30,005 bases of DNA from a virus. Each line of letters starts with the position of its first letter. Within the stretch, counting starts at the first letter, position 1. A program made the position numbers and the translations under genes. Positions 1,273 to 28,854 of the stretch are shown one piece after another. The notes beneath the pieces were generated by a model. That model was not told where the DNA came from and made no database searches. It was given only the letters and a program-made list of their open reading frames with translations. Location: the IMG/VR virus record IMGVR_UViG_3300045136_000824, positions 1 through 30,005 of that record; one strand, 5' to 3'.

Positions 1273-1797
1273 ATGAAGACCGAAAACGAAATCCGAGAAG
1301 AGATCGAGGCGCTCCGCAGCCTGACCACGGCGCAGCTCAAGGAGAAGTACCGCGAGGTCTTCGGCGAGGAGTCCCGATCCAATCACAAGCAGTTCCTGTT
1401 CCGCCGCATCGCCTGGCGCATCCAGGCCAACGCCTGGGGCGGCCTCTCCGAACGCGCCCGCCGCCGCGCGCTCGAGATTGCGGACGACGCTGATCTCCGT
1501 ATCCGGGCGCCCAAGAACTTCTTGCGGGAGCCGGTTGATGATGGCCGCACATCGGAGGCGCGAGTGAAGCCATCGCTTGACCCGCGGCTGCCGCTACCTG
1601 GCACGCCGCTCATCCGCCGCTATCGGGGCAAGGACATCATCGTCCACGTCCGTCCCGATGGCGGCTTCGAGTGCAACGGCAGGATCTACATGTCGCTGAG
1701 CCGCGCGGTGACCGAGGCGACGGGCACGCGGTGGAACGGCTTTGCCTTTTACAACCTTGGCCACCGGCCAGGAGCGAAGCATGGCAAACGGGAATAA
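1273..1797 (+). CDS. DUF2924 domain protein
   Basis: The protein is 174 residues and shows the DUF2924 pattern: EIEALRSLTTAQLKEKY, then RSNHKQFLFRRIAWRIQ, GGLSERARRRA and a C-terminal RWNGFAFYN. The function of DUF2924 is not established; family members commonly lie directly before serine recombinases, as here. The start at ATG 1273 leaves a 4-nt gap from the small upstream gene. An in-frame ATG at 1252 would overlap that gene by 17 nt and is the alternative. The 3' end overlaps the recombinase start by 17 nt. The basic, Arg-rich character suggests DNA binding, perhaps as an accessory or directionality factor, but that is inference from context. Confidence 0.85.
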   Translation: MKTENEIREEIEALRSLTTAQLKEKYREVFGEESRSNHKQFLFRRIAWRIQANAWGGLSERARRRALEIADDADLRIRAPKNFLREPVDDGRTSEARVKPSLDPRLPLPGTPLIRRYRGKDIIVHVRPDGGFECNGRIYMSLSRAVTEATGTRWNGFAFYNLGHRPGAKHGKRE

Positions 1798-3310
1798 CGG
1801 CAACGGCGCGCCAAAGCCGGTCCGTTGCGCCATCTACACGCGCAAGTCCACCGACGAGGGCCTGAATCAGGACTTTAACTCCCTCGACGCGCAGCGCGAC
1901 GCCGGCGAGGCTTACATCCGCAGCCAGGCCGGCGAGGGCTGGACGCTGGTACCCATGCAGTACGACGACGGCGGCTACACCGGCGCCAACATGGACCGTC
2001 CGGCGCTGCGCCGTCTGCTGGCGGACATCCAGGCCAAGAAGGTCGATTGCGTCGTGGTCTACAAGGTGGACCGGCTCAGCCGGTCGATCCGGGACTTCGG
2101 CCGGATCATGGAGATCCTGGAGAAGCACGGCGCGACGTTCGTTTCGGTCACCCAGCAGTTCAACACGACCACCTCCCTCGGCCGGCTCACGCTCAACATC
2201 CTGCTTTCCTTCGCGCAATTCGAACGGGAGATCATCAGCGAGCGCACCCGCGACAAGCAGATCCTGGCGCGCAAGCGCGGCAAGTGGACCGGCGGCCACG
2301 TCCCGCTGGGGTACGACCTTGTGGACGGCTGCCTGGCGGTCAACGAGGAGGAGGCCGCGCGCGTGCGCCGAATCTTCGAGTGGTACCTGGAAGGTCACTC
2401 CGTCCATGGCATCGTGGCGAAATGCGAGGGCTTCGGTTGGCGCAACAAGGAGTGGGCCACCAAGGAAGGTAAGACGTTCGGCGGCCATCCTATGCGGAAG
2501 TGCCACATCTACACGATGCTGGCCAACCCGCTGTACGCCGCGCAGATCCGGGCAGGTGACGAGATCGTCGCCGCGGCCCACCCCCGGATCGTCGACGACA
2601 ACACCTTCGACCTGGTCCAGCAGAAGCTGAAGGAGAACACGCGGAATCCCGGCGGTGCGCACGGGCCAAGAGTGGAAGCCCTGCTGCGCGGACTCCTCTA
2701 TTGCGCTGCCTGCGGATCGGCCATGTCACCGAGCTACTCTTCGAGCAAGAACCGGCGCTACCGGTACTACGTCTGCCTTCGCAGCATGCAGCGGAACGGT
2801 GACGGGTGCACAACGCGCGCCGTGTCCGCGCCGGTGGTCGAGGAGGCGGTCATTGAGAGCGTCCGGCGGTTCGCCGCGCAGCCCGAGGTCGTGGAAGCGA
2901 TCGCCCGTGCGGCGCGCCAGCGGTTGAGCGAAGAACTGGACCGGCACCGCGAGGAGCTGAAGGCGATCAACGTCCGCCTGCGGAACGCGAAGTCGCAACT
3001 CGTGCGCGCGAAGAACCTCGACGCCGACCGGGAGGCCGCGCTCCGCGACCTCGTTTCGTCGGGAGAGGCCAAAGCGGACCAACTCCGCAGCTTGGTGGAG
3101 CGCGGCGAACGGCTTAGGTTCGATGACCAGATGGTGCGCCAGCGCATGGCGACGTTTGACGAGGTCTGGAAGACCATGACGATCCAGCAGCAGGCCGCGC
3201 TGCTGCGCCAATTGATCGAACGGGTCGGCTACGACGCCCGCGGCGACAAGGTCAAGGTCACCTACCACTCGAACGGCATCCGGGAGTTCTCGAAAGGAGC
3301 GTCAAAGTGA
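1781..3310 (+). CDS. Large serine recombinase (resolvase/integrase family)
   Basis: At 509 residues this is the size of a large serine integrase. The N-terminal resolvase domain (about 14-160) has the motif RCAIYTRKST with likely catalytic Ser23 and nearby Arg21, then YKVDRLSRS and the long helix with FEREIISERT. The central recombinase domain follows (about 180-290), then a zinc ribbon beginning CAACGSAM at about 308, paired with later Cys residues, and a coiled coil (about 380-450). ATG 1781 is preceded by AGGAG at 1770-1774; a longer in-frame start at 1742 lacks this. Such enzymes integrate and excise phages or islands through a Ser-DNA covalent intermediate. It is the best candidate for the recombinase that moves this element. 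Confidence 0.95.
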   Translation: MANGNNGNGAPKPVRCAIYTRKSTDEGLNQDFNSLDAQRDAGEAYIRSQAGEGWTLVPMQYDDGGYTGANMDRPALRRLLADIQAKKVDCVVVYKVDRLSRSIRDFGRIMEILEKHGATFVSVTQQFNTTTSLGRLTLNILLSFAQFEREIISERTRDKQILARKRGKWTGGHVPLGYDLVDGCLAVNEEEAARVRRIFEWYLEGHSVHGIVAKCEGFGWRNKEWATKEGKTFGGHPMRKCHIYTMLANPLYAAQIRAGDEIVAAAHPRIVDDNTFDLVQQKLKENTRNPGGAHGPRVEALLRGLLYCAACGSAMSPSYSSSKNRRYRYYVCLRSMQRNGDGCTTRAVSAPVVEEAVIESVRRFAAQPEVVEAIARAARQRLSEELDRHREELKAINVRLRNAKSQLVRAKNLDADREAALRDLVSSGEAKADQLRSLVERGERLRFDDQMVRQRMATFDEVWKTMTIQQQAALLRQLIERVGYDARGDKVKVTYHSNGIREFSKGASK

Positions 3311-4019: not shown

Positions 4020-5577
<1,558 letters not shown>

Positions 5578-5588
<11 letters not shown>

Positions 5589-6921
5589 GTGGATCGAAAT
5601 CCCTATTGGCGAAATCGCAGAGATATTCGATGGGCCTCACGCTACGCCGGCTAAGACAGAATCTGGCCCTATTTTCCTCGGCATTTCTAATCTCGATCGG
5701 GGCCGATTAAATCTCACCGAAACCGAGCGGCTATCAGAAGACGATTGGAAGCGCTGGACACGCCGTGTTACGCCTCGACCAGGCGACGTAGTGTTCTCTT
5801 ATGAAACCCGAATTGGAGAAGCTGCGCTCATTCCGGAGGATCTCAAGTGCTGCCTCGGGCGGAGAATGGGACTGTTGCGTGCGCGGCCAGGAAAAGTAGA
5901 ACCGCGGTTTCTGCTTTATGCGTACCTCGGTCCGCAATTTCAGGAAATGCTCAGGTCACGCACGGTTCACGGCAGCACCGTTGACCGCATCCCACTCATC
6001 GAAATGCCCGGGTTTCCGATTCGTTTGCCGAAGGAACAGGCGACACAGCGCGCCATCGCCTGCATCCTCGGCTCTCTGGACGACAAGATTGAATTGAATC
6101 GGCGGATGAACCGGACGCTGGAGGAGATGGCGCGGGCGATCTTCAAGAGCTGGTTCATCGACTTCGACCCGGTGCGCGCCAAGGCCCGAGTCCGCCGCGA
6201 GCATCCGAAGTGGACCGACGACCAGGTCAGCCGCGCCGCCTGTCCGAAGCTGAAACCCGAAATCGCCCGCCTCTTCCCCGACAGCTTCGAGGACTCCGAA
6301 CTCGGCGAGATTCCGAAGGGGTGGGCCGCACGAACCCTAGCCGACCTCGCGGAACTGAACCCGGAAAGCTGGTCCAAGGAGACGGCTCCGGACTGGATCG
6401 AGTATGTGGATTTGTCGAACACGAAGCGGGGCGTTATTGAGTCCACGACTGAATTCTCGTGGGAGAGTGCCCCAAGCCGCGCTCAGAGAGTTCTCCGGCC
6501 AGGAGACACAATCATTGGAACTGTGCGTCCAGGGAACTGCTCCTATGCCCTTATCTCCCGCAACGGCTTGACTGGTAGCACGGGATTCGCAGCACTGAGA
6601 CCGCACCGACCTGAATTCGAAGAGTTTGTCTATCTTGCGGCGACATACCCTGAAAACATTGATCGCTTGGCACATCTTGCAGATGGGGCGGCTTACCCGG
6701 CTGTGCGGCCTGAGGTGGTCCTTAACTCACCTACTGTTCGGTCGCCAGATCAGGTGCTGCGGGAGTTCCATAGAATCACGGATCCTATGCTGGCGAAGAT
6801 TGCCGCGCAATCCACTCAGTCGCGCACCCTTGCCGCCCTTCGCGACGCCCTGCTACCAAAGCTGATTTCCGGCCAATTGCGTATCCGTGACGCCGAACGT
6901 ATTGTTCAAAGAAAGGTTTAA
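5578..6921 (+). CDS. hsdS: Type I restriction-modification specificity subunit HsdS
   Basis: The 447-residue protein has the two-TRD layout of HsdS. TRD1 covers about residues 5-160, the central conserved helix is [30 protein letters not shown] (about 162-195), TRD2 covers about 245-400, and the distal helix ends with [15 protein letters not shown]. Each TRD should recognise one half of a bipartite DNA target, and the helices set the spacer. The recognition sequence cannot be read from the protein. The DNA of both TRDs is visibly less GC-rich (about 52% in a sampled 60 bp) than hsdM, a usual sign of TRD exchange. The start lies within the 3' end of hsdM. Confidence 0.96.
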
Positions 6922-6924
6922 GTC

Positions 6925-8157
6925 ATGGCCAGACGAAAACAACCCGGCCGCGCTCGGATCGAGCAGCTTCGCGTGGAGAACTACCGCGCCTTGCGGTCCA
7001 TTGAAGTCAAGGACATCACGCCCTTCACCGTCCTGCTCGGCCCGAACGGCAGCGGCAAGTCCACCATTTTCGACGTATTCAATTTCCTGGCGGAGTGTTT
7101 CCAGTTCGGCTTGCGGCATGCTTGGGACCGGCGGGGACGCGGCAAAGAATTGAAGACCCGCGGCCAGACCGGACCCGTGGTGATCGAACTGAAGTACCGG
7201 GAGCAGCCGGGCCAGCCGGTCATCACCTACCATCTCGCTCTCGACGAAGGGCAGAAGGGCGCCTATGTCGCTGAGGAATGGCTCCAGTGGCGGAGGGGAA
7301 GGCGGGGGCAACCATTCCGCTTTCTCGACTATCGCGAGGGGAAAGGCCGTGCCGTTAGCGGCGAGTTACCAGATGAAAGCGATCAACGGATAGACATACC
7401 GCTGAAGGCCCCGGATCTGATTGCGGTCAACGCCTTAGGACAGTTTGCCGAACACCCTCGGGTGGCTGCTTTGCGTGAGTTCATTACCGATTGGTATGTC
7501 TCGTACCTCTCGATCGAAGACACGCGGGGACAGCCGGAGGCCGGACCGCAGGAGCGCTTGAGCAAGACGGGCGACAACCTGGCTAACGTCATCCAGTACC
7601 TGCGGGAACGGCACCCGCAGCGGTTGGATCAGATCTTCGACACGTTACGGAAGCGCGTGCCGCGCCTGGAGAAGGTGCTGGCGGACTCGATGCCTGATGG
7701 CCGGCTGCTGCTGCAAATCAAGGATGCTCCCTTCGAGCAGCCGATCCTGTCGCGGTTCGCCTCCGACGGGACACTCAAAATGCTCTCGTATCTGGTCGTG
7801 CTCTACGACCCGGACCCGCCGCAGTTCATCGGCATCGAAGAACCGGAAAACTTTCTCCACCCCCGGCTCTTGCCGGATCTCGGGGAAGAGTGCCGCAAGG
7901 CGACGCAGCATTCACAGCTTCTCGTCACGACGCATTCCCCTTTCTTCCTCGATTCGGCGAAACCCGAGGAAGTCCGTATCCTCTATCGGGACGACAACGG
8001 GTATACCCAGACGGTCCGCGCCGCGGACGTTCAAGGGGTGAAGGAATTCATCGCAGCCGGCGCATCGATGGGGCATCTCTGGCTCGAAGGCCGGTTCGGA
8101 GTGGGTGATCCCCTGGTCAACTCGGGCGCGCCGCGCCCAAGGGGGCGCGCGCGGTGA
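6925..8157 (+). CDS. AAA ATPase (ABC/OLD-like) embedded in the R-M operon
   Basis: The 410-residue protein has a complete ABC-type ATPase core. It starts [17 protein letters not shown] and carries Walker [10 protein letters not shown] (38-46), a signature-like [10 protein letters not shown], Walker [13 protein letters not shown] (about 300-310) and the H-loop TTHSPFFLD (about 334). This is the AAA_21/AAA_15 group that includes the ATPase parts of OLD nucleases and PARIS AriA. There is no C-terminal TOPRIM domain; the next gene supplies a candidate. It starts 3 nt after hsdS and overlaps the next gene by 4 nt. It probably forms a sensor/effector complex with the DUF4276 protein; anti-phage function is inferred from family and position. 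Confidence 0.9.
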
Positions 8158-8768
8158 TGGTTTCGCACGTAGAGATCCTGGTTGAGGAGCCGTCGATGGA
8201 GGCGGCGTTGCGGCTGATCATTCCCAAGATCAGTAATGCCTTGTCCTTCGAGATCTATTCACACCGGTGCAAGCAGGACCTGCTGGGCAAGCTCCCCGCA
8301 CGGCTGAAAGGCTACGCCGCGTGGTTGCCGCAGGACTGGCGCATCGTGGTGATTGTGGACCGGGACGACGACGATTGCGCGGCCTTAAAACGGAAGTTGG
8401 AAAGGGCGGCCAAAGACGCGGGCCTGACTTCGAGAACCCAAAGGGGCAGCGGCGGGTTTCAAGTGGTGAATCGCCTGGCCATCGAGGAACTCGAGGCGTG
8501 GTTCTTCGGAGATTGGGATGCTGTTTGCGCCGCCTATCCCGGTGTGGATCAGAATGTTCCGAACAAGAGCAAATATCGTGATCCGGATGCGATATCTGGA
8601 GGCACTTGGGAAGCGCTGGAGCGAGTCCTCCGAAGAGCAGGACATTTTCAAACGGGTTTGAGAAAGATCGAAGCCGCTCGGGCGATCGCGCAGCACATGA
8701 ACCCGACGGCGAACCGTTCGCAGAGCTTCCGTGCGTTCCGGGATGCGCTGAGCGAAATGACGTCATGA
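8154..8768 (+). CDS. DUF4276 protein, TOPRIM-like putative nuclease partner of the ATPase
   Basis: The 204-residue protein resembles DUF4276. It shows a TOPRIM-type layout: a first strand ending in acidic residues (VEILVEEP, Glu11/Glu12), then a strand followed by [10 protein letters not shown] with Asp69 and Asp71 as a DxD motif. [14 protein letters not shown] further on is typical of the family. TOPRIM domains bind metal and cut or rejoin nucleic acid. It is coupled on both sides: GTGA overlap with the ATPase gene and ATGA overlap with hsdR. ATG 8157 is an alternative start. The pairing parallels AriA/AriB of PARIS and two-gene OLD-like systems. The TOPRIM assignment is by motif only. Confidence 0.82.
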
Positions 8769-11700
8769 GCCACGCAGCCCGAGGTTTCACCGAATCCATT
8801 GTCGAGCAAGCCGCGCTGGCTTGGCTTGAAAGCCTCGGCTATGCCGTCCTTGCCGGACCGGAGATCGCCCCGGGCGAGCCCCAGGCCGAGCGCGAGGACT
8901 ACCGCCAGGTGGTGCTCGAACGGCGGATCCGGCAGGCGCTCGAACGTCTGAATCCTCGGTGCTCCAGTGACGTGCTGGAGGAGGCGTACCGGAAGCTCAC
9001 GCGGCCGGAGTCGCCCTTGCTGGTGGCAAACAACCGCACGGTTCACAGGTACCTCGTCGAGGGCGTGCCCGTTGAATTCACGCGGCCGGATGGGTCCATC
9101 GGCAGCGACGCAGCGCGGGTTCTCGATTATGAACGGCCGGATCAAAACGACTTCCTCGCCGTGCACCAATTCACGGTGGTGGAAGATCATCGCGAGCGCC
9201 GCGCGGACGTGGTGATCTTCGTCAACGGCCTGCCACTCGCGGTGATCGAACTCAAGAACGCGGTCTCCGGCGGCGCGACGATCTGGTCGGCGTTCAACCA
9301 GCTCCAAACGTACAAGCAGGACATCCCGTCGCTCTTCACATTCAACGAGGCGCTGGTCATCTCCGATGGCGTCGAGGCGCGCATTGGGACCTTGACCGCT
9401 GACCGGGAATGGTTCATGCCCTGGCGAACGGTCGAGGGAGAAGACCTGGCCGATACGCGGCTCCCGCAACTCCAGGTTGTCCTGGAGGGGGTGTTCGACA
9501 AACGCCGGTTCCTGGATCTGATCCGCTATTTCATCGTGTTCGAAGATACCGGCGGCGGAACACTCGTAAAGAAGATGGCCGGCTATCACCAGTACCACGC
9601 GGTGAATCTTGCCGTGGAATCCACGGTGAGAGCCGCTGGCGCGGGCGGCGACAGGCGCGCGGGCGTGGTTTGGCACACGCAAGGGTCGGGGAAAAGCTTG
9701 ACGATGGCGTTCTACGCCGGGCGAGTGGTGCAGCATCCGGCAATGGAGAACCCAACGCTGGTGGTGATCACCGACCGGAACGATCTGGATGACCAGCTTT
9801 ACGGAACGTTCGCCCGTTGCCACGAATTGCTCCGGCAACAACCGAGCCAAGCTCTCAACCGGGCGCATCTCCGCGAGCTGCTCACGACGGGTTCGGGTGG
9901 TGTGATCTTCACAACGGTACAGAAGTTCTTCCCCACCGAGGGCGAAGACCAGCATCCGTTGCTGTCAGACCGTCGAAACATTGTGGTGATTGCCGACGAG
10001 GCCCACCGGAGCCAGTACGACTTCATCGACGGCTTCGCGCGCCACATGCGGGAGGCCCTGCCGAACGCTTCGTTCATTGGTTTTACGGGCACGCCGATCG
10101 AACTCGAAGACAAGAACACCCGGGCGGTTTTCGGTAACTACGTCAGCATTTACGACATCGAGCGCGCCGTGAAGGACGGCGCCACGGTGCCCATCTACTA
10201 TGAAAGCCGTCTCGCAAGGCTGGCGCTGGATGAGAGCGAAAAGCCCAAATTGGACGAGGAGTTCGAGGAGCTCACCGAGGGCGAAGAGGTCGAGCACAAA
10301 GAGCGGCTGAAAACCAAGTGGGCGCAGTTGGAGGCCTTGGCCGGCACCGAGAAACGCGTCGCTTTGATCGCACAAGATCTCGTCGATCATTTTGAGCGGC
10401 GCCTGGAAGCGATGGAAGGCAAGGCGATGGTGGTCTGCATGAGCCGGCGTATCTGCGTAGCTCTATACAACGCCATCGCGAAGATTCGGCCCGGCTGGCA
10501 CCACGAGGATGACGACAAGGGCCAGTTGAAGATCGTGATGACCGGCTCGGCCGCTGACCCGCTCGACTGGCAACCCCACATCCGCAACAAGCAGCGGCGC
10601 GAAGGGCTGGCCGCGCGATTCAAGGATCCGAAGGACCCATTCCAGATCGTCATCGTGCGCGACATGTGGCTGACCGGATTTGACGTCCCTTGCCTGCACA
10701 CGATGTACCTGGATAAGCCGATGCGCGGCCATGGCCTCATGCAGGCGATCGCGCGCGTGAACCGGGTGTTCCGGGACAAACCCGGCGGCCTCGTGGTGGA
10801 TTACCTCGGTCTGGCCCACGAACTCAAGCAGGCGCTGGCCAACTACACCGAGAGCGGGGGGAAAGGTCAGACGGCGGTGGACCAGACTGAAGCGGTCGCC
10901 GTGATGCTCTCAAGATATGAGGTGTGCTGTGGTATGTTCCACGGGTTTGACCGCTCCCAGTGGAACGCAGGGACGCCGCAGCAACGCCTCTCCGTGCTGC
11001 CCGCCGCACAGGAACATATTCTCAGGCAGGAAGACGGGAAGAACCGTTTCCTGAAAGCTGTCGGCGACTTGTCCAAGGCCTTCGCTCTGGCAGTACCCCA
11101 CGACAACGCGCTGGAGATACGGGATGACGTGGCGTTCTTCCAGGCGGTCCGGACGGTCCTGACAAAGAGTGCGACCGGCGGACGGCGCAGTCCCGAGGAC
11201 TTGGAACTAGCCATCCGGCAGATCGTGTCGCGCGCGGTGGCTTCCGATGGGGTCATCGACATTTTCGAGGCTGCCGGGCTGAACAAGCCGGACATCTCGA
11301 TCTTGTCGGATGAATTCCTCACTGAAATTCGGGGCATGCCGCACAAGAACCTCGCGGTCGAGATGCTTCGCAAGCTTCTTGAAGGCGAAATCCGGACCCG
11401 CGGCAGAAAGAACATCGTGCAAGGGCGCGCATTCTCGCAGCTTCTGGAAGACGCGATCCGGCGATACCAGAACCGGGCTATTGAAACGGCCCAGGTGATT
11501 GAAGAGTTGATCGCTCTTGCGAAGGACATGCGTGAGGCGGACCGCCGCGGCGAGAACTTGGGGTTGACCGAGGACGAGATTGCCTTCTATGACGCGCTCG
11601 AAGTCAACGATAGCGCCGTGAAGGTCCTGGGGGATGAAACGCTGCGCACGATTGCGCAAGAGCTGGTGCGCACCGTTCGGGAAAACGTGAGAATCGACTG

Positions 11701-11863
11701 GACTGCCCGCGAGAACGTGCGCGCCCAGATGCGGGTGATGGTGAAGCGAATCCTCCGGCGATACGGCTATCCGCCAGACAAACAAGCCCGGGCAACGGAA
11801 CTTGTCCTGGAACAGGCGGAAGTGCTGTGCCTGGACTGGGCCGAACAAGATTCGCCGGTGTAA
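8765..11863 (+). CDS. hsdR: Type I restriction endonuclease subunit HsdR
   Basis: The 1032-residue protein has the HsdR architecture. The N-terminal nuclease domain contains [20 protein letters not shown] (about 147-163), a PD-(D/E)xK site. The SF2 translocase has Walker A HTQGSGKS (about 304), DEAH in [13 protein letters not shown] (about 409), FTGTPIE, and the later [15 protein letters not shown] motif. A helical C-terminus binds the methylase core. It translocates DNA from unmethylated sites using ATP and cuts far from the site. ATG 8765 overlaps the DUF4276 stop by 4 nt; an upstream in-frame start at 8606 would run deep into that gene. No damage is visible. Confidence 0.97.
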
Positions 11864-19214: not shown

Positions 19215-19967
19215 ATGGCAAGCAAGGAAGTCATCAAGAAGAACCAGGAAGCGGCGATCAATCCGTTCGTCGTTTTCCAGACGCCGGTTGCGGAGATCCG
19301 CGACGCGGTGGCGGCCAACCTCGGAGACAGTGGCATGAGCGCCACCGACTTTGAGCGCATCAAGATTCCGGCGGGCGGCGGCACGGCGTGGACGCTGCAA
19401 ACCCTCGACGGCGAGGAGATGGTGAAGGAACTCGCCGGCATCATCGTCGCATGGCGCGACACGCGCGCTTACTGGAGCGTGCCGCTTGAACAGTCGGATG
19501 GGAACATGCCCCCGGACTGTTACTCGCTCGATGCCCGCACGGGCACGGGCAAGCCGGGCGGCGACTGCCACAAGTGCCCCTTCGCGCAGTTCGGCAGCGA
19601 CCCGAAGGGCGAGGGCCAAGCCTGCAAGCTGGTGCGCCAGTTGTTCTTCGTGCGCGAAGAGAACCTGCTGCCCGAGATCGTGAGCCTGCCCGCGAGTTCG
19701 GTCAAGCCGGCGCGGCAGTACTTCATGCGCCTGGCGTCGAAGGCCGTGCCCTGCTACAGCCTGATCACCAAGATCGGCCTCGAGAAGACGAAGAACGCGC
19801 AAGGCATCGTGTACTCGCGGGCGACGTTCACCTCGGGCGGTCGGCTCTCGCCTGAACAGGCCGCGCGCATCAAAGAGTATGCCGCGATGCTCAAGCCGTT
19901 CCTCGAATCGGCGCCCTCGGCCCCCACGGCGAAAGACGTTCAGCACGGCGAAGGCGAAATCATCTGA
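19215..19967 (+). CDS. Phage-type DNA-metabolism protein with Cys cluster
   Basis: ATG 19215 follows AAGGAGAAG and lies 2 nt after the previous stop. The 250-residue product contains C-x2-C within GDCHKCPFAQFGS and a further Cys in GQACKLVRQLFF (about residues 117-140), so it may bind zinc. Its shape, an N-terminal helix, a central domain with the Cys cluster and an acidic end HGEGEII, recalls single-strand-binding or annealing proteins of phages. The acidic C-terminus would fit that role. The family is seen beside primases, but its function is not firmly known to me. Confidence 0.8.
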   Translation: MASKEVIKKNQEAAINPFVVFQTPVAEIRDAVAANLGDSGMSATDFERIKIPAGGGTAWTLQTLDGEEMVKELAGIIVAWRDTRAYWSVPLEQSDGNMPPDCYSLDARTGTGKPGGDCHKCPFAQFGSDPKGEGQACKLVRQLFFVREENLLPEIVSLPASSVKPARQYFMRLASKAVPCYSLITKIGLEKTKNAQGIVYSRATFTSGGRLSPEQAARIKEYAAMLKPFLESAPSAPTAKDVQHGEGEII

Positions 19968-19990
19968 CACGGCCGGCGTGGGGAGGAAGC

Positions 19991-22558
19991 ATGGAGGTTG
20001 GCGAACTGGCCATCCGGCAATTCATCGAGCGGGTCCACGGTCCCGAGCCACAAGGGTGGCTCGTGGTGTGGACCCGCCAGGACAAGGCGTCGAGGGCCTT
20101 TCCTCTCTCGCAAGAGGGCGCCCTCGATGCCGCTGTCGCCTATTGCGCGGATCGGGCCCCGCGGCAGGACGTCTACGCCGCCGTCGGATTGCAGGGCCAG
20201 GCGCCCGAGAACGGGAGCCGCGGAAAGGAAGCCGGCGTGGTGTCGGTGCCGGGCGTGTGGGCCGACATCGACATCGGCGGCGCGGCGCACAAGGCGAAGG
20301 ATCTTCCCGGCAGTGAAGAAGAGGCGCTGTCCCTCGTTGAGGCCGTCGGACTCCCGCCGTCGGTCATCGTGCGCAGCGGCTTCGGGCTCCAGGTGTACTG
20401 GCTCTTCCGGGAGCCGTTCGTAATCGAGACGGCGGCCGAACGGCAGGATCTCAAATCGCTGTCGCGGCGCTTTCAGCACATGCTTCGCTTGCAGGCCCGG
20501 GCGCGGGGCTGGACCATCGATCCGACCGCCGATCTCTGCCGCGTTCTCCGTGTCCCGGGCACCTTCAACCGCAAGATCCCTGGCGACGTGCGTCCGGTGA
20601 CCGCGGAGTACTTCGACCGGGCGTACTGCCTCGACGACATCGCCGAAATCCTTTGCGGGCTCGATGATCCCGGCGAGCCCGCGCCCAGCCAGCCGCCACC
20701 GGACCTGCCGCCAGCGCAGTTGCCGCTCATCCTCGAAGGGTGCGCCTGGATGCGCCACTGCCGGGACGATGCGGCGACGCTGCCCGAGCCCGAGTGGTAC
20801 CGGATGCTGACCGTAGTCGCCCGGTGCGAAGATCCAGAGCGATGGGCGCACGAATTGAGTCAGGCGCATCCGAAGTACACCCGCGGCGAAACCCAGCGCA
20901 AGCTGAAGCAGGCCTCGAGTGAGCAGGTAGCCCCCGTCACGTGCGCCTATGTCGAATCCGACCTCGGCGGTGCACGATTTTGCAACGAGTGCTTGTTCCG
21001 CGGCAACGTGAACTCGCCCATCGCGATCGGGCGGCTGGACCTGAACGGCGAAGCCGGCGAGTCCGGGCCACCCGAGGATGTGGAACCAGCGGAGGGAGAC
21101 GGATCCGATCCGCCGCCCCCGGCGGTCACCGCCGCCGCCTCCCAGATTGAGCACTTCACGGACCTCGGCAACGCCAAGCGCTTCGCCGCCCGCTACCGCG
21201 GCCAGCTCCTGTACTGCGAGAAGTGGACCCGCTGGTTCGAATGGGACAACATGCGCTGGCGCGAGGACGAGACGCTCGAGGTCTACCGCCTGGCCGGCCT
21301 CCTGATCCGGAGCCTGTACCCGCTCGCCAAGCGAATCCGCGACGACGAAGAGCGGCAGGCCTTCCTGAAACACCTGGCGCGGTCCGAATCCTTCCGGGCG
21401 CAGACCGCCATGATTAACCTCGCCAAGGCCGACCCGGCCTTCGCGGTCCGGCCCGGCGACCTGGACCGTGACCCATGGCTGCTGACCGTCGAAAACGGCA
21501 CGCTCGATCTGCGCACCGGCACGTTGCGCCCGCATGACCAGCGGGACCGCATCACCAAGCTCGCGCCGGTTCGCTTCGACCCCACGGCTTCGTGCCCCAA
21601 CTGGCTCGAGTTCCTGCACATGGTCATGGGCGGCAATCAACGGCTCGTTTCTTTTCTCCAACGCGCCTTCGGCTGCTGCCTCACTGGGATCACGTCCGAC
21701 AAGGCCATGTTCATCCTCTACGGGGCGAGCGGGGATAACGGCAAGTCGACCATGGTCGACGTCATCCAACTGCTGCTCGGCGACTACGCCGTGCGCACGC
21801 CCACCGAAACATTCCTCCGCAAGAAGGACGGGGCGATCCCGAACGACGTGGCCAAGCTCAAGGGCGCCCGCTTCGTGTGGGCTTCCGAAAATGAGCGCGG
21901 CTCGCGGCTGTCGGAGTCGCTGATCAAGGAGATGACCGGCGGCGACAAGCTTTCGGCGCGGTTCATGCGGGGCGAGTTCTTCGAGTTCTACCCCGAGTTC
22001 AAACCGTGGCTGGCCACCAATCACAAGCCGCAAGTGCGCGGCGACCGCGCGCTGTGGAACCGGCTGAAGCTGATCCCCTTCCACGTCACGATCCCCAAGG
22101 ACCGCCAGAAGCCGCGCCACGAGGTCATGGCGATGTTCCGGCGGGAGTTTCCGGGGATCTTGAACTGGGCGCTCGAGGGGTGCCTGGAATGGCAACGGAA
22201 CGGCCTCGGCGTGCCCGAGGAGGTCGTGGCGGCCACGCGCGAGTACGAGGCCGAACAGGACACCTTCGCGATGTTCCTCGAAGAGAAGTGCGTGAGGGCG
22301 CCCAACGCGCGCGTGCTGTCGCTGGCGCTGTACCGCGAGTACAAATCCTGGGCCGAGCAGTACGGCGAGTCGCCGGTCAGCCACAAGATGTTCGCCTCGT
22401 TCATGAGCGAACGGGGATTCGAGAAGACCAAAACCATGAAAGGCGCGCTGTACTCCGGCGTGGGTTTGCGTACCGAGGACCACTACGACACGCCGCGCGG
22501 TTCAGCGCCACCACGGCAAACTCACCTGGTCCACGAGGAAGAAGGGGAGGAAGTGTGA
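19991..22558 (+). CDS. Bifunctional primase-helicase (P4/D5 type)
   Basis: The 855-residue protein joins two parts. The N-terminal domain (about 10-240) looks like a RepB-like archaeo-eukaryotic primase with WADIDIGG (DxD metal site, about 88-95), SGFGLQVYW (about 128-136) and CRVLRVPGTFNRK. The position often held by His in SGxGxHxYW is Gln here. The C-terminal SF3 helicase (about 480-770) has Walker A GASGDNGKST (about 578), FVWASENERG, and LWNRLKLIPFHVTIP. It should prime and unwind DNA at the element's origin. ATG 19991 is preceded by GGGAGG. The candidate origin lies immediately downstream. Confidence 0.95.
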   Translation: MEVGELAIRQFIERVHGPEPQGWLVVWTRQDKASRAFPLSQEGALDAAVAYCADRAPRQDVYAAVGLQGQAPENGSRGKEAGVVSVPGVWADIDIGGAAHKAKDLPGSEEEALSLVEAVGLPPSVIVRSGFGLQVYWLFREPFVIETAAERQDLKSLSRRFQHMLRLQARARGWTIDPTADLCRVLRVPGTFNRKIPGDVRPVTAEYFDRAYCLDDIAEILCGLDDPGEPAPSQPPPDLPPAQLPLILEGCAWMRHCRDDAATLPEPEWYRMLTVVARCEDPERWAHELSQAHPKYTRGETQRKLKQASSEQVAPVTCAYVESDLGGARFCNECLFRGNVNSPIAIGRLDLNGEAGESGPPEDVEPAEGDGSDPPPPAVTAAASQIEHFTDLGNAKRFAARYRGQLLYCEKWTRWFEWDNMRWREDETLEVYRLAGLLIRSLYPLAKRIRDDEERQAFLKHLARSESFRAQTAMINLAKADPAFAVRPGDLDRDPWLLTVENGTLDLRTGTLRPHDQRDRITKLAPVRFDPTASCPNWLEFLHMVMGGNQRLVSFLQRAFGCCLTGITSDKAMFILYGASGDNGKSTMVDVIQLLLGDYAVRTPTETFLRKKDGAIPNDVAKLKGARFVWASENERGSRLSESLIKEMTGGDKLSARFMRGEFFEFYPEFKPWLATNHKPQVRGDRALWNRLKLIPFHVTIPKDRQKPRHEVMAMFRREFPGILNWALEGCLEWQRNGLGVPEEVVAATREYEAEQDTFAMFLEEKCVRAPNARVLSLALYREYKSWAEQYGESPVSHKMFASFMSERGFEKTKTMKGALYSGVGLRTEDHYDTPRGSAPPRQTHLVHEEEGEEV

Positions 22559-22801
22559 TGACGGATCCGTCATGCCTCGACCAAGCAAGTCCTTTGTTTT
22601 CAATAGACCATTCTGGATATGACGGGTTATGACGGATAGACTCTATTATCCGCCTATACGAAAAAAAGAACCCATGCCCTTCTACACGTATAGAGCTTAT
22701 ATAGGAAAATCCGTCATAACCCGTCATATCTGTCATCGTTCGCCGTATCTTACTGCACACACGACAGTTAGGGCCATGACAGATTCAGCGCAATCCGTCA
22801 T
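22558..22801. repeat. Iteron-like cluster, candidate replication origin
   Basis: Between the primase stop and the next gene, ATGACGG occurs seven times on either strand: forward at 22558, 22619 and 22629; reverse at 22567, 22711, 22721 and 22795. The variant ATGACAG occurs twice (reverse at 22730, forward at 22776). The first two form a 16-bp palindrome, ATGACGGATCCGTCAT (22558-22573). Neighbouring copies are spaced 9-10 bp, one helical turn. The core (22638-22708) is only about 38% GC, far below the flanks. Iterons plus an AT-rich segment beside a primase-helicase gene fit an origin; an operator cluster is the alternative. An open frame inside it looks spurious. Confidence 0.65.
22616..22730. 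repeat. 22-bp perfect inverted repeat inside the iteron cluster
   Basis: The arms at 22616-22637 and 22709-22730 are exact reverse complements, 22 bp each, separated by 71 bp of low-GC DNA. Each arm holds two ATGACGG copies 10 bp apart. Nested within are smaller inverted pairs: CTATACG (22654-22660) with CGTATAG (22687-22693), and CTCTAT (22641-22646) with ATAGAG (22690-22695). The arrangement could form a cruciform or be opened by the SF3 helicase. Confidence 0.85.
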
Positions 22802-22812
22802 AGAGGGTGGCC

Positions 22813-23259
22813 GTGGACGTTGAAGCGGTTCTGGACCGTCTGATGCAAGCCGGGGTCTCGGTCTGGCTGGACGACGAGGGCAAGCTGCGCATTGACAAAG
22901 GCGCGCCGGAGGAGATCAAGCAGCTCGTGCGCGAGCACAAGCAGGAGTTGATCGACGTGCGCCGGGCGCAGGACTTTATGAACCGTGCCGGCATCCGGAT
23001 CATTCGCCTGCCGCTGGGCCATCTTGCCCTGGCCTATCCGCCCCGCACCGATATGGACGAACTGCGCTGGGCGGCCCGCACTCTCCGCATGGACTCGATG
23101 CCGCTGGTCATCAACGACGAGGGGCTCGAGTGGATCAGCCCCGAGGAATGGCGGCGACGCCAAGTCGCTCGGATCTGCGAAGAGTACCGGCGCGAGCGGC
23201 TGAGGAAGGCGACGCCGGAAGCCGCCGAGCAGTCGATGCCTCGAAGGAGGCGGGCGTGA
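22813..23259 (+). CDS. TubC_N-like docking-domain protein
   Basis: GTG 22813 is preceded by GAGGG at 22803-22807; GTG 22807 is an alternative. The 148-residue product starts VEAVLDRLMQAGVSVWLDDEGKLRI and continues IKQLVREHKQELIDV. This is the pattern of the TubC N-terminal docking domain, a small protein-interaction fold also common beside phage primases. The rest (IIRLPLGHLALAYPP, ARTLRMDSMPLVIND) has no recognised motif, and the tail is Arg-rich. It overlaps the nuclease gene by 4 nt. A role as a primase or replisome interaction protein is inferred. Confidence 0.8.
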   Translation: MDVEAVLDRLMQAGVSVWLDDEGKLRIDKGAPEEIKQLVREHKQELIDVRRAQDFMNRAGIRIIRLPLGHLALAYPPRTDMDELRWAARTLRMDSMPLVINDEGLEWISPEEWRRRQVARICEEYRRERLRKATPEAAEQSMPRRRRA

Positions 23260-24317: not shown

Positions 24318-24677
24318 ATGGCTGATTCTCCCTCCCTCCAGCCGCGATCGTTGGGAAGGATCGCGGTCCCGACGCCAGGAACGCCCGTCCGGGTGACCTC
24401 CGACACCTCGATCCGGGCCCACCGGATCCGGTTTGCCGTCGTCATCGGCGAGACGGGGCGAGTGTTCCTCGGCGTCCAGGGGATGAACAAGGCGACCGGG
24501 GCAGGCGTCTTGAAGGAGTTCTGGCCCACGGGCGCGGGCGGCGGCGTGGCCGACGAATTTGTGATCGATTCTGCTGCGGGCGAATTGCGGCCGTCGGACT
24601 ACTTCGTCGATGCCAACACGGCCGGCGAGGGGTTGCTCGTCGCCTACTGGACCTGGGTTCCGAGCTATGCCAGTTGA
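24318..24677 (+). CDS. Unknown beta-rich phage-type protein
   Basis: The 119-residue protein appears mostly strand: TPGTPVRVTSDTSIRAHRI, FAVVIGETGRVFLGVQGM, ELRPSDYFVDANTAGEGL, LLVAYWTWV. Repeated Gly and strand patterns recall small phage structural or decoration proteins, but I cannot assign one. ATG 24318 has no strong ribosome site. The 3' end overlaps the following methyltransferase gene by 11 nt if that gene starts at 24667. Confidence 0.7.
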   Translation: MADSPSLQPRSLGRIAVPTPGTPVRVTSDTSIRAHRIRFAVVIGETGRVFLGVQGMNKATGAGVLKEFWPTGAGGGVADEFVIDSAAGELRPSDYFVDANTAGEGLLVAYWTWVPSYAS

Positions 24678-26127
24678 TCGCGTGACGCCGGCGATGGCGA
24701 AGCGGATCGAGCTGTGGCCTCTCAAGCGGCTGGCGCCTTATCAGCGAAACCCGAGGACCCATTCCGAGGAGCAGGTGACGCAGATCGCGGCCTCGATTGC
24801 CGAGTTCGGCTTCTGCAATCCGATTCTGGTCGACTCGCGCGACGGCATCATCGCCGGGCATGGGCGGCTGCTGGCGGCGAAGAAACTGGGTCTCGACGAA
24901 GTGCCGGTGATCGTGCTGGATCACCTCGACGAGCACCAGCGGCGAGCGTACTTATTGGCCGACAACCGGCTGTCGGAGTTGGCCGGATGGGATCACGAGT
25001 TGCTGGCGCTCGAGTTGAAGGAACTGGCGGACGCCGGATTCGACGCGACGCTGGCCGGGTTCGACTCGAAGGAGATCGACGACATCCTGGCGTCGCTCGA
25101 ACGCCACGCGGAGCCGGAGTCCAGCGAGGCCGAAGAGGCTGTCCCGGAAGTGCCCGCGGAAGCGGCCACGCGGCCCGGCGACCTGTGGCTGATCGGTCCC
25201 CATCGCCTCATTTGCGGAGACTGCCGCGATCTCGGCGTGATCGCGCGGTTGTTCGAGGATCGGAAGGCGAACGTCGTCATCACGTCGCCGCCTTACGCCA
25301 CGCAGCGCCAGTACGATCCATCAAGCGGCTTCGAGCCCGTGCCGCCAGAGAAGTACGTCGCCTGGTTCAAGGACGTCGCCACGGCGATCGAATCGGTGCT
25401 GGCGCCGGACGGCTCCTACTTCCTCAACATCAAAGCCCACGCCGAGGAGGGCGAGCGCCACACCTACGTGATGGACCTCGTGCTCGCGCACAAGCGCGAG
25501 TGGGGCTGGCGGTTTGTCGACGAGTTCTGCTGGCGCAAGACCGACGATGGCGTGCCGGGTGGCTGGAACAATCGCTTCAAGAACGCCTGGGAGCCGATCT
25601 ACCACTTCTCGCGCGAGCGCAAGATCAAGTTCCGGCCGCGCGAGGTGGCGCACTGGTCCGACGACTGTTTCGACTACTCGCCCGACAATCCGAAGTCGAC
25701 CTCGGGCAGCGGGCTGCTCGGCACGGGGCCGCGTGGCGCAGCGGCCGACAAAGGCAAAAACCATGCGGCCTGGCAGACCACACGGCGCAACGCCAACGAC
25801 CTCGAAGGGCGACACGGTGGCCTGGCGCGCCCGTCAAACGTGATCGAAGCCAAGACCGAGTCCTCGCAGGGGAATCATTCGGCCCCGTTTCCGCGCGCGA
25901 TCCCGGAGTTCTTCATCAAGGCGTTCTCGGACTCGGGTGACGTGATCTTCGATCCGTTTGCGGGCAGCGGCACGACACTGGTCGCCGCCGGGCTGCTCGA
26001 TCGGTCTGGCTTCGGCGTCGAGATCAGCCCGGCTTACTGCGATGTGATCCTGCGCCGGATGCAGGAGACCTTGAAGCTCACGCCCGTGCATGCGGTGACG
26101 GGCGAACCATTTCAACCCCACACTTGA
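24667..26127 (+). CDS. ParB-domain DNA methyltransferase, SPPY type
   Basis: The 486-residue fusion has an N-terminal ParB-like domain (about 10-120: RNPRTHSEEQVTQIAASIAE, then IIAGHGRLLAAKKLG). A beta-class methyltransferase follows, with catalytic TSPPY (Ser207-Tyr210) before the SAM site DPFAGSGTT (about 428-436). SPPY is usual for N4-cytosine enzymes, though N6-adenine use is possible. All key motifs are present and no restriction partner is adjacent, so it is likely a phage-type solitary methylase that protects or marks element DNA. ATG 24667 overlaps the previous gene; ATG 24694 is the alternative. It is a paralogue of the gene at 27586. Confidence 0.93.
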   Translation: MPVDRVTPAMAKRIELWPLKRLAPYQRNPRTHSEEQVTQIAASIAEFGFCNPILVDSRDGIIAGHGRLLAAKKLGLDEVPVIVLDHLDEHQRRAYLLADNRLSELAGWDHELLALELKELADAGFDATLAGFDSKEIDDILASLERHAEPESSEAEEAVPEVPAEAATRPGDLWLIGPHRLICGDCRDLGVIARLFEDRKANVVITSPPYATQRQYDPSSGFEPVPPEKYVAWFKDVATAIESVLAPDGSYFLNIKAHAEEGERHTYVMDLVLAHKREWGWRFVDEFCWRKTDDGVPGGWNNRFKNAWEPIYHFSRERKIKFRPREVAHWSDDCFDYSPDNPKSTSGSGLLGTGPRGAAADKGKNHAAWQTTRRNANDLEGRHGGLARPSNVIEAKTESSQGNHSAPFPRAIPEFFIKAFSDSGDVIFDPFAGSGTTLVAAGLLDRSGFGVEISPAYCDVILRRMQETLKLTPVHAVTGEPFQPHT

Positions 26128-26662: not shown

Positions 26663-26737
26663 TGCGGAGTGGCGCAATGGCAGCGCGGCGGACTCATCAT
26701 CCGCAGGCCGCGGGTTCGATTCCCGCCTCCGCTACCA
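26663..26737 (+). tRNA. tRNA with CAT anticodon (Met or Ile2 type), unusual
   Basis: The cloverleaf has D-stem GCGC/GCGC, anticodon stem GCGGA/TCCGC, T-arm GCGGG-TTCGATT-CCCGC, discriminator A and encoded CCA (26735-26737). The loop CTCATCA gives anticodon CAT at 26695-26697. Two features are odd: position 37 is C, where CAT tRNAs normally have A (loop CTCATAA), and the first acceptor pair is T-T while the other six pair well. The initiator-type GGG/CCC pairs are absent. It lies within element genes 18 bp after a terminator. It may be a divergent phage tRNA or a decaying one. Confidence 0.85.
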
Positions 26738-26747
26738 GTCATTGCTG

Positions 26748-27017
26748 ATGATCCGCGAACTGCGGCTGTGGTGGCGGCTGCGGCCGCTGGTCAACCAATT
26801 CCAGGAGCTCACGAAGATGAAGTTTTCCGTGAACGTCGCCATTCAGATGCTGGCGCTGGTGGCGCAGGGCTTGAACGCCTCGATCGACCTGCTGCCCGGG
26901 CGCGGCAAGTTCTGGGCCATGGTCGGGCTGTCGGCGGTGCAGGGTCTCACGGCCGTGCTCGCCCATTTCGCCAACCCGGACGGTACGCCCGCTGAGGCGC
27001 CCTATCGCAAGTCGTGA
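26748..27017 (+). CDS. Small membrane-type protein, possible holin-like
   Basis: The 89-residue product starts at ATG 26748, just after the tRNA. It has a basic N-terminus (IRELRLWWRLRPLV) and two moderately hydrophobic helices, VNVAIQMLALVAQGLN (about 29-44) and FWAMVGLSAVQGLTAVLAHF (about 57-76), with a polar tail ending YRKS. Size and two-helix form would suit a holin or small phage membrane protein, but hydrophobicity is moderate and no holin family was recognised. It overlaps the homing-endonuclease start by 4 nt. Confidence 0.65.
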   Translation: MIRELRLWWRLRPLVNQFQELTKMKFSVNVAIQMLALVAQGLNASIDLLPGRGKFWAMVGLSAVQGLTAVLAHFANPDGTPAEAPYRKS

Positions 27018-27589
27018 TGAGCCTTGCCCTGGCTGCTACATCCCAACAGGCAGCGACAACTTGCCACAGGTCAGCGCCTACCGCTGAAGAGTGGCGCGAA
27101 GTTGTCGGTTTTGAAGCCCACTACCAGGTCTCCTCATGGGGTCGCGTCCGGCACAAGGAGACAGGGCGCGTCCTCCGTCCCTGGATCGCTGCCCATCGGT
27201 ACCACTACGTACACCTGTGCCGTTGCGATTACAGACGGAAGGTAGGCGTCCATGTACTTGTCGCCGAAGCCTTTCTCGGACCCAAACCGTCGCCCCGGCA
27301 CGAGGTGGCGCATTGGGATGGTGTAGGCACGCATAACATCGTGACTAATCTCCGATGGGCCACGCACGCTGAAAATGTTCAAGATCAGAGACGTCACGGA
27401 ACGCTGCACCCTCCCCGCTTCCGAGGATCGTCGCATCCACGGGCTAGGCTACGCGAAGAAGACGTGCTGCGACTTCGCTGTCTCTACTCAGGCCGTCGCG
27501 GCGAATTGGCCCAGCTCGCCCGGCTCTATGGCGTCCATCCGAGCACACTTAAACGCGCGGTGGTCGGAAATGGTTGGACCCATCTATGA
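27014..27589 (+). CDS. NUMOD4/HNH homing endonuclease
   Basis: The 191-residue protein has an N-terminal NUMOD4 motif (EEWREVVGFEAHYQVSSWGRVR) and an HNH core. In the core, HVLVAEAFLGPKP leads to EVAHWDGVGTHNIVTNLRWATHAENVQD, with the His, Asn and Asn/His set of HNH_3. A C-terminal HTH (ELAQLARLYGVHPSTLKRAVVG) would bind DNA. Such enzymes are free-standing homing nucleases of phages that cut alleles lacking them. Its DNA looks less GC-rich than its neighbours. Both ends overlap adjacent genes by 4 nt (ATGA), so it is neatly placed within the operon. It sits just before one ParB-methyltransferase paralogue. Confidence 0.92.
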   Translation: MMSLALAATSQQAATTCHRSAPTAEEWREVVGFEAHYQVSSWGRVRHKETGRVLRPWIAAHRYHYVHLCRCDYRRKVGVHVLVAEAFLGPKPSPRHEVAHWDGVGTHNIVTNLRWATHAENVQDQRRHGTLHPPRFRGSSHPRARLREEDVLRLRCLYSGRRGELAQLARLYGVHPSTLKRAVVGNGWTHL

Positions 27590-28854
27590 AAACAGTCTGT
27601 CCTAACATTCAGATCCAGCGATGGCCCGTTGAGCGACTAATTCCTTTCGCCAGGAACCCGCGCACTCACACCGAGGAACAGGTGGCGCAGATCGCAGCGT
27701 CGATCGCCGAGTTCGGGTTCGTCAATCCCGTGCTCGTCGGGGCCGACGGGGTCATCATCGCCGGCCACGCGCGCGTGATGGCCGCCCGAAAGCTGGGGAT
27801 GAGTGAAGCACCAGTGATCGTGCTCGATCACTTGAGCGAGGCGCAACGGCGCGCGCTGGTCATCGCGGACAACAAGCTTGCCCAGAACGCCGGGTGGAAT
27901 GAGGAGATGCTGCGGCTGGAACTGGAGGCCCTGCGCGAGGACGACTTCAACCTCGATCTACTGGGCTTCGAGGACGCGGAGATCGAGGCTCTACTTGCGG
28001 ATCCTGATGAGGCCATCGCCGGCAACACAAAGGACGATGCACTCCCGGAGACACCCGGGACGGCGGTCACGGTTCCAGGCGATGTGTGGCTGCTCGGCGA
28101 TCATCGCCTGTTGTGCGGCGACTCGACGCAGATGGAAGCGGTGGAGAGGGTGCTGGCGGGCGGGCTGGCCGACATGATTTTCACCGACCCGCCGTACAAC
28201 GTCAACTATGGCGCAACCATGAAGGACACGCTGCGCGGCAAGAAGCTGGCCATCAGGAACGACAACCTGGGCGACGGCTTCGAGCAGTTCCTCTGCAACG
28301 CCTGCTCGAACATCCTCGCCGTCACGAAGGGCGCCGTCTACATCTGCATGTCCTCGTCGGAGCTGCACACGCTCCACAAGGCGTTCACCGAGGCGGGAGG
28401 CCACTGGTCCACCTTCCTCATCTGGGCCAAGAACACGTTCACCATGGGCCGCGCCGATTACCAGCGGCAGTACGAGCCGATCCTCTACGGCTGGAAGGAA
28501 GGGACGGACCATTACTGGTGCGGCGCTCGCGACCAAGGCGACGTGTGGTTCGTCAAGAAGCCGGTTGCGAACGACCTGCACCCGACGATGAAGCCCGTCG
28601 AGTTGGTCGAGCGAGCGATCCGCAACTCGAGCAAGAGCCGCGACACGGTGCTTGATCCGTTCGCCGGTTCGGGTTCGACACTCATCGCTTGCGAGAAGAC
28701 CCGCCGCCAGGCGCGGCTGATCGAACTGGAGCCCAAGTACTGCGATGTCATCATCCGCCGCTTTGAAGAGTTTTCCGGCAAGCGCGCCGTGCTCGCGTCC
28801 GACGGACGAGGGTTCGCAGAGATCGCCCTGGAGCGAGGAGCGGTGGCGGCGTGA
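27586..28854 (+). CDS. ParB-domain DNA methyltransferase, DPPY type
   Basis: The 422-residue protein has the same plan as the gene at 24667. The ParB-like domain (about 10-120) has RNPRTHTEEQVAQIAASIAE and IIAGHARVMAARKLG. The beta-class methyltransferase carries DPPYNVNYG (Asp201-Tyr204) and DPFAGSGST (from Asp357). DPPY indicates N6-adenine methylation. The N-terminal halves of the two proteins are clearly paralogous, while the catalytic parts differ in length and motif, so the element may methylate two different sites. ATG 27586 overlaps the HNH stop. No restriction gene is adjacent. ParB domains may aid sliding or dimerisation; this is inference. Confidence 0.94.
   Translation: MKTVCPNIQIQRWPVERLIPFARNPRTHTEEQVAQIAASIAEFGFVNPVLVGADGVIIAGHARVMAARKLGMSEAPVIVLDHLSEAQRRALVIADNKLAQNAGWNEEMLRLELEALREDDFNLDLLGFEDAEIEALLADPDEAIAGNTKDDALPETPGTAVTVPGDVWLLGDHRLLCGDSTQMEAVERVLAGGLADMIFTDPPYNVNYGATMKDTLRGKKLAIRNDNLGDGFEQFLCNACSNILAVTKGAVYICMSSSELHTLHKAFTEAGGHWSTFLIWAKNTFTMGRADYQRQYEPILYGWKEGTDHYWCGARDQGDVWFVKKPVANDLHPTMKPVELVERAIRNSSKSRDTVLDPFAGSGSTLIACEKTRRQARLIELEPKYCDVIIRRFEEFSGKRAVLASDGRGFAEIALERGAVAA

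Follow-up and report, generated by a model that had tools for sequence, protein, structure and literature searches.

The alpha protein of phage P4 is a primase-helicase whose C-terminal winged helix binds the repeats of the origin (the ori and crr iterons). In PICIs and SaPIs, the origin lies immediately 3' of the gene for the initiator, a self-loading helicase, and has two sets of iterons around an AT-rich region, a layout that has been stated to be unique to PICIs among known replicons (PMC6092414). The Cch2 protein of SCC(mec) elements binds iterons just downstream of its own gene, and its isolated C-terminal domain is enough to do so (PMC7581432). In pRN1, where the initiator unites primase, SF3 helicase and winged-helix parts, the origin is an essential inverted repeat with a 58-nt loop that starts 54 bp 3' of the initiator gene (PMC4234260). 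Two phage records, whose origin status we take from their annotation only, place the origin at the end of the primase gene as well. In Streptococcus phage Sfi21 (NC_000872), positions 34487-34784, overlapping the 3' end of this gene, are marked as origin of replication and phage inhibitory sequence, and comprise, in order, an outer palindrome near the gene end, two copies of TTAGTTAC, an AT-rich core, two copies of GTAACTAA and outer copies. In Lactobacillus phage A2 (NC_004112), the origin of replication (32208-32717) likewise lies 3' of the primase gene and contains ACGGGAG repeats.

The window studied here, a virus record of 30,005 bases from IMG/VR, carries a repeat array that had been predicted to let an island replicate on its own. 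A relative of 44.9 kb is colinear with the window and has genes for terminase, portal and protease as well as for the major head and minor tail proteins; these begin with the terminase, about 1 kb past the point that matches the end of the window. Judged from this gene order, the window is part of a tailed phage or prophage; we rejected an island, a satellite or a PICI as the type of element because the relative possesses the terminase, portal, protease and major head genes. Nearly all genes of the window point the same way, and a large serine integrase gene is found at 1742-3310. The group to which this phage belongs comes from metagenomes and Acidobacteriota MAGs. A tRNA-Asn gene (3-77) at the extreme left end of the record is a possible attachment site. 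Positions 4020-11863 hold an apparent type I restriction-modification system, with HsdM-, HsdS- and HsdR-like frames and an AAA ATPase gene, named from their translations only. Further right lie two related genes for fusions of ParB-N and DNA methyltransferase (24610-26127 and 27574-28854), with a tRNA-Met gene (26663-26737) and an HNH endonuclease gene (27014-27589) between them.

The features that matter for the array are the following:

19991-22558, plus strand: gene for the D5-type primase-helicase P0001 (855 aa), by Pfam and PHROG matches; proposed initiator
22223-22468, plus strand: C-terminal winged-helix domain, about residues 745-826, by AlphaFold2 model; proposed iteron-binding domain
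22433-22450, plus strand: codons of the wing turn, residues 815-820 (T-M-K-G-A-L), by covariation; proposed specificity determinant
22558(+), 22567(-), 22619(+), 22629(+), 22711(-), 22721(-), 22730(-), 22776(+) and 22795(-): the nine ATGAC(G/A)G iterons, by first position
22558-22573, no strand: 16-bp palindrome ATGACGGATCCGTCAT, an outer pair of divergent, back-to-back iterons
22616-22637, plus strand: left arm, two tandem iterons (ATGACGG at 22619 and 22629)
22638-22708, no strand: AT-rich core between the arms; proposed melting site
22709-22730, minus strand: right arm, two inverted iterons (CCGTCAT at 22711 and 22721)
22730-22736, minus strand: third right-arm iteron, ATGACAG, also present in relative L003
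22776-22801, no strand: right outer pair, ATGACAG (plus strand) at 22776 and ATGACGG (minus strand) at 22795
22807-23259, plus strand: downstream gene with a weak TubC_N-like match

The anatomy announced in the original prediction is borne out by the sequence. All nine iterons are present within 244 bp (22558-22801), seven as ATGACGG and two as ATGACAG. The whole window contains 15 matches to ATGAC(G/A)G where shuffles give 7.5, so that about 0.06 copies are expected per 244 bp; nine lie far beyond chance (Poisson estimate of about 1e-17), and this comparison excludes a fortuitous clustering of the 7-mer. The array sits directly behind the primase-helicase gene, as had been proposed: the first position of the 16-bp palindrome, itself among the predicted elements, is the last base of the stop codon. 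The 22-bp inverted repeat is indeed perfect, its arms being 100% complementary and separated by 71 nt, and a search of the window for further inverted repeats of at least 14 bp with a spacer of up to 200 found none besides it. Within the arms the iterons follow each other at 10, 10 and 9 bp, in agreement with the helical-turn spacing claimed. GC content is 63% in the window (the prediction gave above 60% for the surrounding DNA), 45% in 22558-22801 and 39.5% in 22577-22710, close to the core value of about 38% first put forward. Nowhere in the window is a 75-bp stretch less stable than 22636-22710, which the inverted repeat encloses. At the left edge of this core (22638-22650), TATTATCCG or a near variant of it, which is not a DnaA box, is retained across the clade despite changes of the iterons. 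Between 22400 and 23000 we found no DnaA box (TTWTNCACA, up to 1 mismatch) and no promoter or terminator consensus, and comparing the array DNA with phage records returned chance matches of about 30 bases only.

We consider it very probable that the array at 22558-22801 serves a tailed (pro)phage as replication origin and that P0001 is the initiator, which would bind the iterons via its C-terminal wing, melt the core and prime bidirectionally. Of the original prediction, the origin is well supported by conservation, annotated phage origins and published homologous systems, while the island gives way to a fragment of a tailed (pro)phage. In the mechanism that we propose, the RFX-like winged helix at the C-terminus of P0001 would bind the ATGACGG iterons, and the turn of its wing (T-M-K-G-A, residues 815-819) would read their sequence. 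The oppositely oriented copies flanking the 71-bp core would assemble two opposed hexamers, these would melt the AT-rich core, and P0001 would then unwind and prime in both directions. Binding by the C-terminal domain is suggested by the analogy with Cch2 (PMC7581432), and recognition through the wing by RFX1, which recognises the major groove of DNA in this way (PMC4333399). Directly observed are the anatomy of the sequence, the conservation of the array behind D5 primases, and the joint variation of the wing turn with the iterons.

P0001 matches the D5_N profile of Pfam (E=5.9e-36), DUF5906 above the cut-off and, at its C-terminus, Pox_D5 slightly below it; among PHROGs it matches phrog_2478, DNA polymerase/primase (E=2.6e-140). 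Its family profile matches solved D5-type primase-helicases, including PDB 7ola, a 'DNA primase' (E=1.8e-20). The AlphaFold2 model, made for the C-terminal 122 residues with 56 relatives, has helices and a two-strand wing whose turn falls on residues 815-818, with a pLDDT of about 90 across most of the domain. The closest fold is the RFX DNA-binding domain (1dp7), from a eukaryotic transcription factor, at a modest E=1.9e-3 with no match below 0.001; we claim no membership of that family. Antisense to the primase gene runs an open frame of 847 aa (19940-22483), probably a by-product of high GC content.

The array could also be looked at as a single-strand hairpin, either a rolling-circle unit or a stem-loop like that of pRN1, instead of a set of double-stranded iterons. 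Indeed, the strand folds with -28.7 kcal/mol (z = -8.0), and the origin of pRN1, 3' of a related initiator gene, has been described as a 100-bp stem-loop (PMC4234260). We nevertheless hold this to be highly improbable: the arms are tandem copies of a unit that is also found singly outside the hairpin, the copies change together in relatives, and P0001 has no match to a rolling-circle nuclease in Pfam or PHROGs. The arms of pRN1, too, hold two TGTCC units each, 10 bp apart, which suggests that the pRN1 stem may itself consist of iterons.

A further reading is that the repeats are transcriptional operators, bound by the primase or another regulator to control downstream genes, and the original prediction had named operators as an outcome that would speak against it. 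The array does lie between two co-directed genes, some initiators autoregulate, and a protein bound here could regulate as well. However, the region lacks the promoter and terminator consensus sought, and from relative to relative the gene behind the array varies, the array itself remaining with the primase (the gene at 22807-23259 is not directly behind the origin in L005, L006 and L009). Operators would also fail to explain why two arms enclose the least stable 75 bp and why the site resembles annotated origins, and we deem it very unlikely that the repeats serve only this purpose. That the array is a partition site (centromere) or a packaging site might come to mind since the phage encodes several ParB-N-domain proteins. 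Yet no ParB-like gene adjoins the array here, the array is found behind the primase in a wide variety of viral contigs, and the sites of like layout in Sfi21 and A2 are annotated as origins, all of which makes this explanation extremely improbable.

The original prediction had asked for the same repeats behind related primases, and conserved arrays are found there. They lie immediately 3' of D5 primases that share 29-97% identity, and close relatives of the window retain the layout, with variations at its edges: outer pairs resembling the palindrome at 22558-22573 occur in L003 and L007 as well as in phage Sfi21, and the right outer pair (22776-22801) is found in L003 and absent from L007 and L008. 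A pattern search for two tandem ATGACGG, blind to proteins, recruited loci of which eight have repeat clusters; six unrelated or distant ones adjoin a D5 primase, as does the window's family, several of these primases being just 29-37% identical, and two clusters (L057 and L114) do not adjoin one. We then looked for arrays within 510 bp spanning the stop codons of 136 nonredundant D5 primases, a survey seeded from the primase family of the window. An exact tandem-inverted array was present in this 3' region in 42/136 cases with 7-mers and 64/136 with 6-mers, counts that are slightly inflated by the few loci recruited through the iteron itself. The same test gave 2/135 and 5/135 inside the primase gene, 0/119 and 3/119 upstream of it, 0/118 and 6/118 further downstream, and 0/2720 and 36/2720 on shuffles (7-mers and 6-mers, respectively). 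Most units are spaced by 9-10 bp; the gap has a median of 68 bp, and in 63/64 arrays the core has a lower GC content than the gene. About half of the 136 relatives have no exact array at k=6, and since iteron calling requires exact repeats, degenerate arrays are missed. We found none in relative L144, whose primase is 72% identical, nor, even with 5-mers, in phages Dubu and phiC31; MissSwiss and Rollins give weak 5-mer matches only. The plan of two tandem iterons, an AT-rich core and two or three inverted iterons 3' of the primase gene recurs behind many unrelated D5 primases.

What is new here is that the iterons change in concert between relatives, and that the wing turn of the primase tracks these changes. 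The iterons are GTGAAGG in L005 and L006, ATGTAGG in L010, L011 and L013, GTGACGG in L012, and GTGTAGG in L009, where one copy deviates; each variant occupies most or all copies of the array in which it is found. Several pairs look like switches caught in the act. The primases of L149 and L150 are 93% identical and their wings read G-M-R-G-M and G-K-H-G-M, with ATGTAG and GTGTAG as iterons. L238 (T-K-H-G-A, GTGACGG) and L391 (T-M-K-G-A, ATGACGG) have primases that are 76% identical. Among Lactobacillus phages, A2 (KKNSGIF, ACGGGAGG) and R9.2 (RKMDGRF, ATGACGGA) are 67% identical in their primases; R9.2, picked from an evenly spaced list regardless of its iteron, agrees with the wing rule set out below.

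We measured covariation over 86 loci with a called iteron, comparing iteron similarity with residue identity after removing overall primase identity, a correction for relatedness that is weaker than a phylogenetic model and under which the wing turn (815-820) has a partial correlation of 0.41 with iteron similarity. Six-residue windows across the body of the protein have a mean of 0.00 (sd 0.07, maximum 0.17), and the recognition helix reaches 0.20. Without the iteron-recruited loci the value for the wing turn is 0.32. After correction for relatedness, clear tracking of the iterons is confined, within the primase, to the wing turn. It could be argued that this is linkage only, the origin being swapped together with the 3' part of the gene as a cassette, which would weaken the reading of the wing and not that of the origin. 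The case of L005 and L006 resembles such an exchange: their primases are near-identical to the window's family up to about residue 812, from which codon the DNA diverges through wing, tail and origin, with an extra gene inserted. In contrast, L149 and L150 differ in iterons and wing but have an unchanged core between the arms and almost identical flanks, which argues against a mere co-transfer of the block. Also, the tail, closer to the origin than the wing, tracks the iterons less (0.13 versus 0.41), and Met816 together with ATGACGG recurs in primases of just 29-38% identity. On balance we find linkage alone unlikely. Immediately behind the origin of L005 (G002:C1:38803-39039, minus strand) there is a separate small gene resembling the C-terminal winged-helix domain of the primase (E=3e-16), with similar reading frames in L006 and L009; its product could be a competitor for the iterons that acts as a copy-number control.

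Residue 816 is the best single column for covariation with the iterons. By lineage, ATGACG iterons accompany Met816 in 5/6 cases and are found in 0/36 without it. In a looser class of iterons, and with residue classes at 816 chosen after inspection of the data, Met816 goes with A in 5/6 lineage combinations (Fisher p=0.002 for Met and A) and Lys, Arg, Asn or His816 with G in 14/16. Scanning for the Met wing returned 12 unrelated proteins, which lack ATGACGG arrays, and 14 D5 primases, all of which (14/14) have them, nearly all of the 14 coming from contigs or lineages already seen, with L409, a relative of L074, as the only new one. The scan for the K-H-G wing pattern returned one already known contig only, so this prospective scan is confined to the Met/ATG side. 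We lean, by a modest preference, towards a shared origin plan and a readable rule among the D5-type initiators of phages, satellites and plasmids, in which the wing turn specifies the iteron: the first base of (A/G)TG... would be A with Met816 and G with Lys, Arg, Asn or His816, and TGAC would go with Ala819, TGTA with Met819. If this is true, all iterons switch along with changes in the turn, so that new incompatibility groups, each with its own origin specificity, arise while the rest changes little, and the primase gene alone could be used to predict where many phages, satellites and plasmids have their origins and which of them are compatible. The switch pairs described above offer a natural test of joint change in initiator and repeats.

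How does this locus compare with the systems described before? A classical iteron origin of the Rep plasmid type was rejected: DnaA boxes are absent, and the adjoining gene codes for a D5-type primase-helicase, not for an initiator of the RepA/RepB type. What we find is an array on the stop codon, opposed iterons around an AT-rich region, and an initiator with a D5 helicase and a modelled winged helix. The layout of pRN1, in which the initiator gene is followed by a long inverted repeat with a loop of about 60 nt, is also seen (22-bp arms, 71-nt loop), pRN1 differing in being an archaeal plasmid whose origin is described as a stem-loop without iterons. P4 alpha has a Toprim-type primase and different iterons. 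Cch2 shares with P0001 a helicase of the D5_N/Primase_Cterm type and repeats 3' of its gene; it differs in its three AAGTG direct repeats and in having the primase on separate proteins, and the study did not show replication in vivo (PMC7581432). The origin plan of PICIs and SaPIs is alike, whereas the window belongs to a tailed (pro)phage and our survey finds the plan in many kinds of viral contigs; an arrangement reported as PICI-specific is common behind D5 primases in such contigs, and a phage group known here from metagenomes and MAGs only gains a predicted origin. Phages Sfi21 and A2 share the tandem iterons, the AT-rich core, the inverted iterons and the outer copies, all directly 3' of the primase gene; they differ in their iterons (TTAGTTAC in Sfi21, ACGGGAGG in A2) and hosts, and the gap of A2, at 134-146 bp, is wider than that of the window. 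This match in layout, together with the PICI/SaPI plan, suggests that the array of the window belongs to a kind of origin that is already known.
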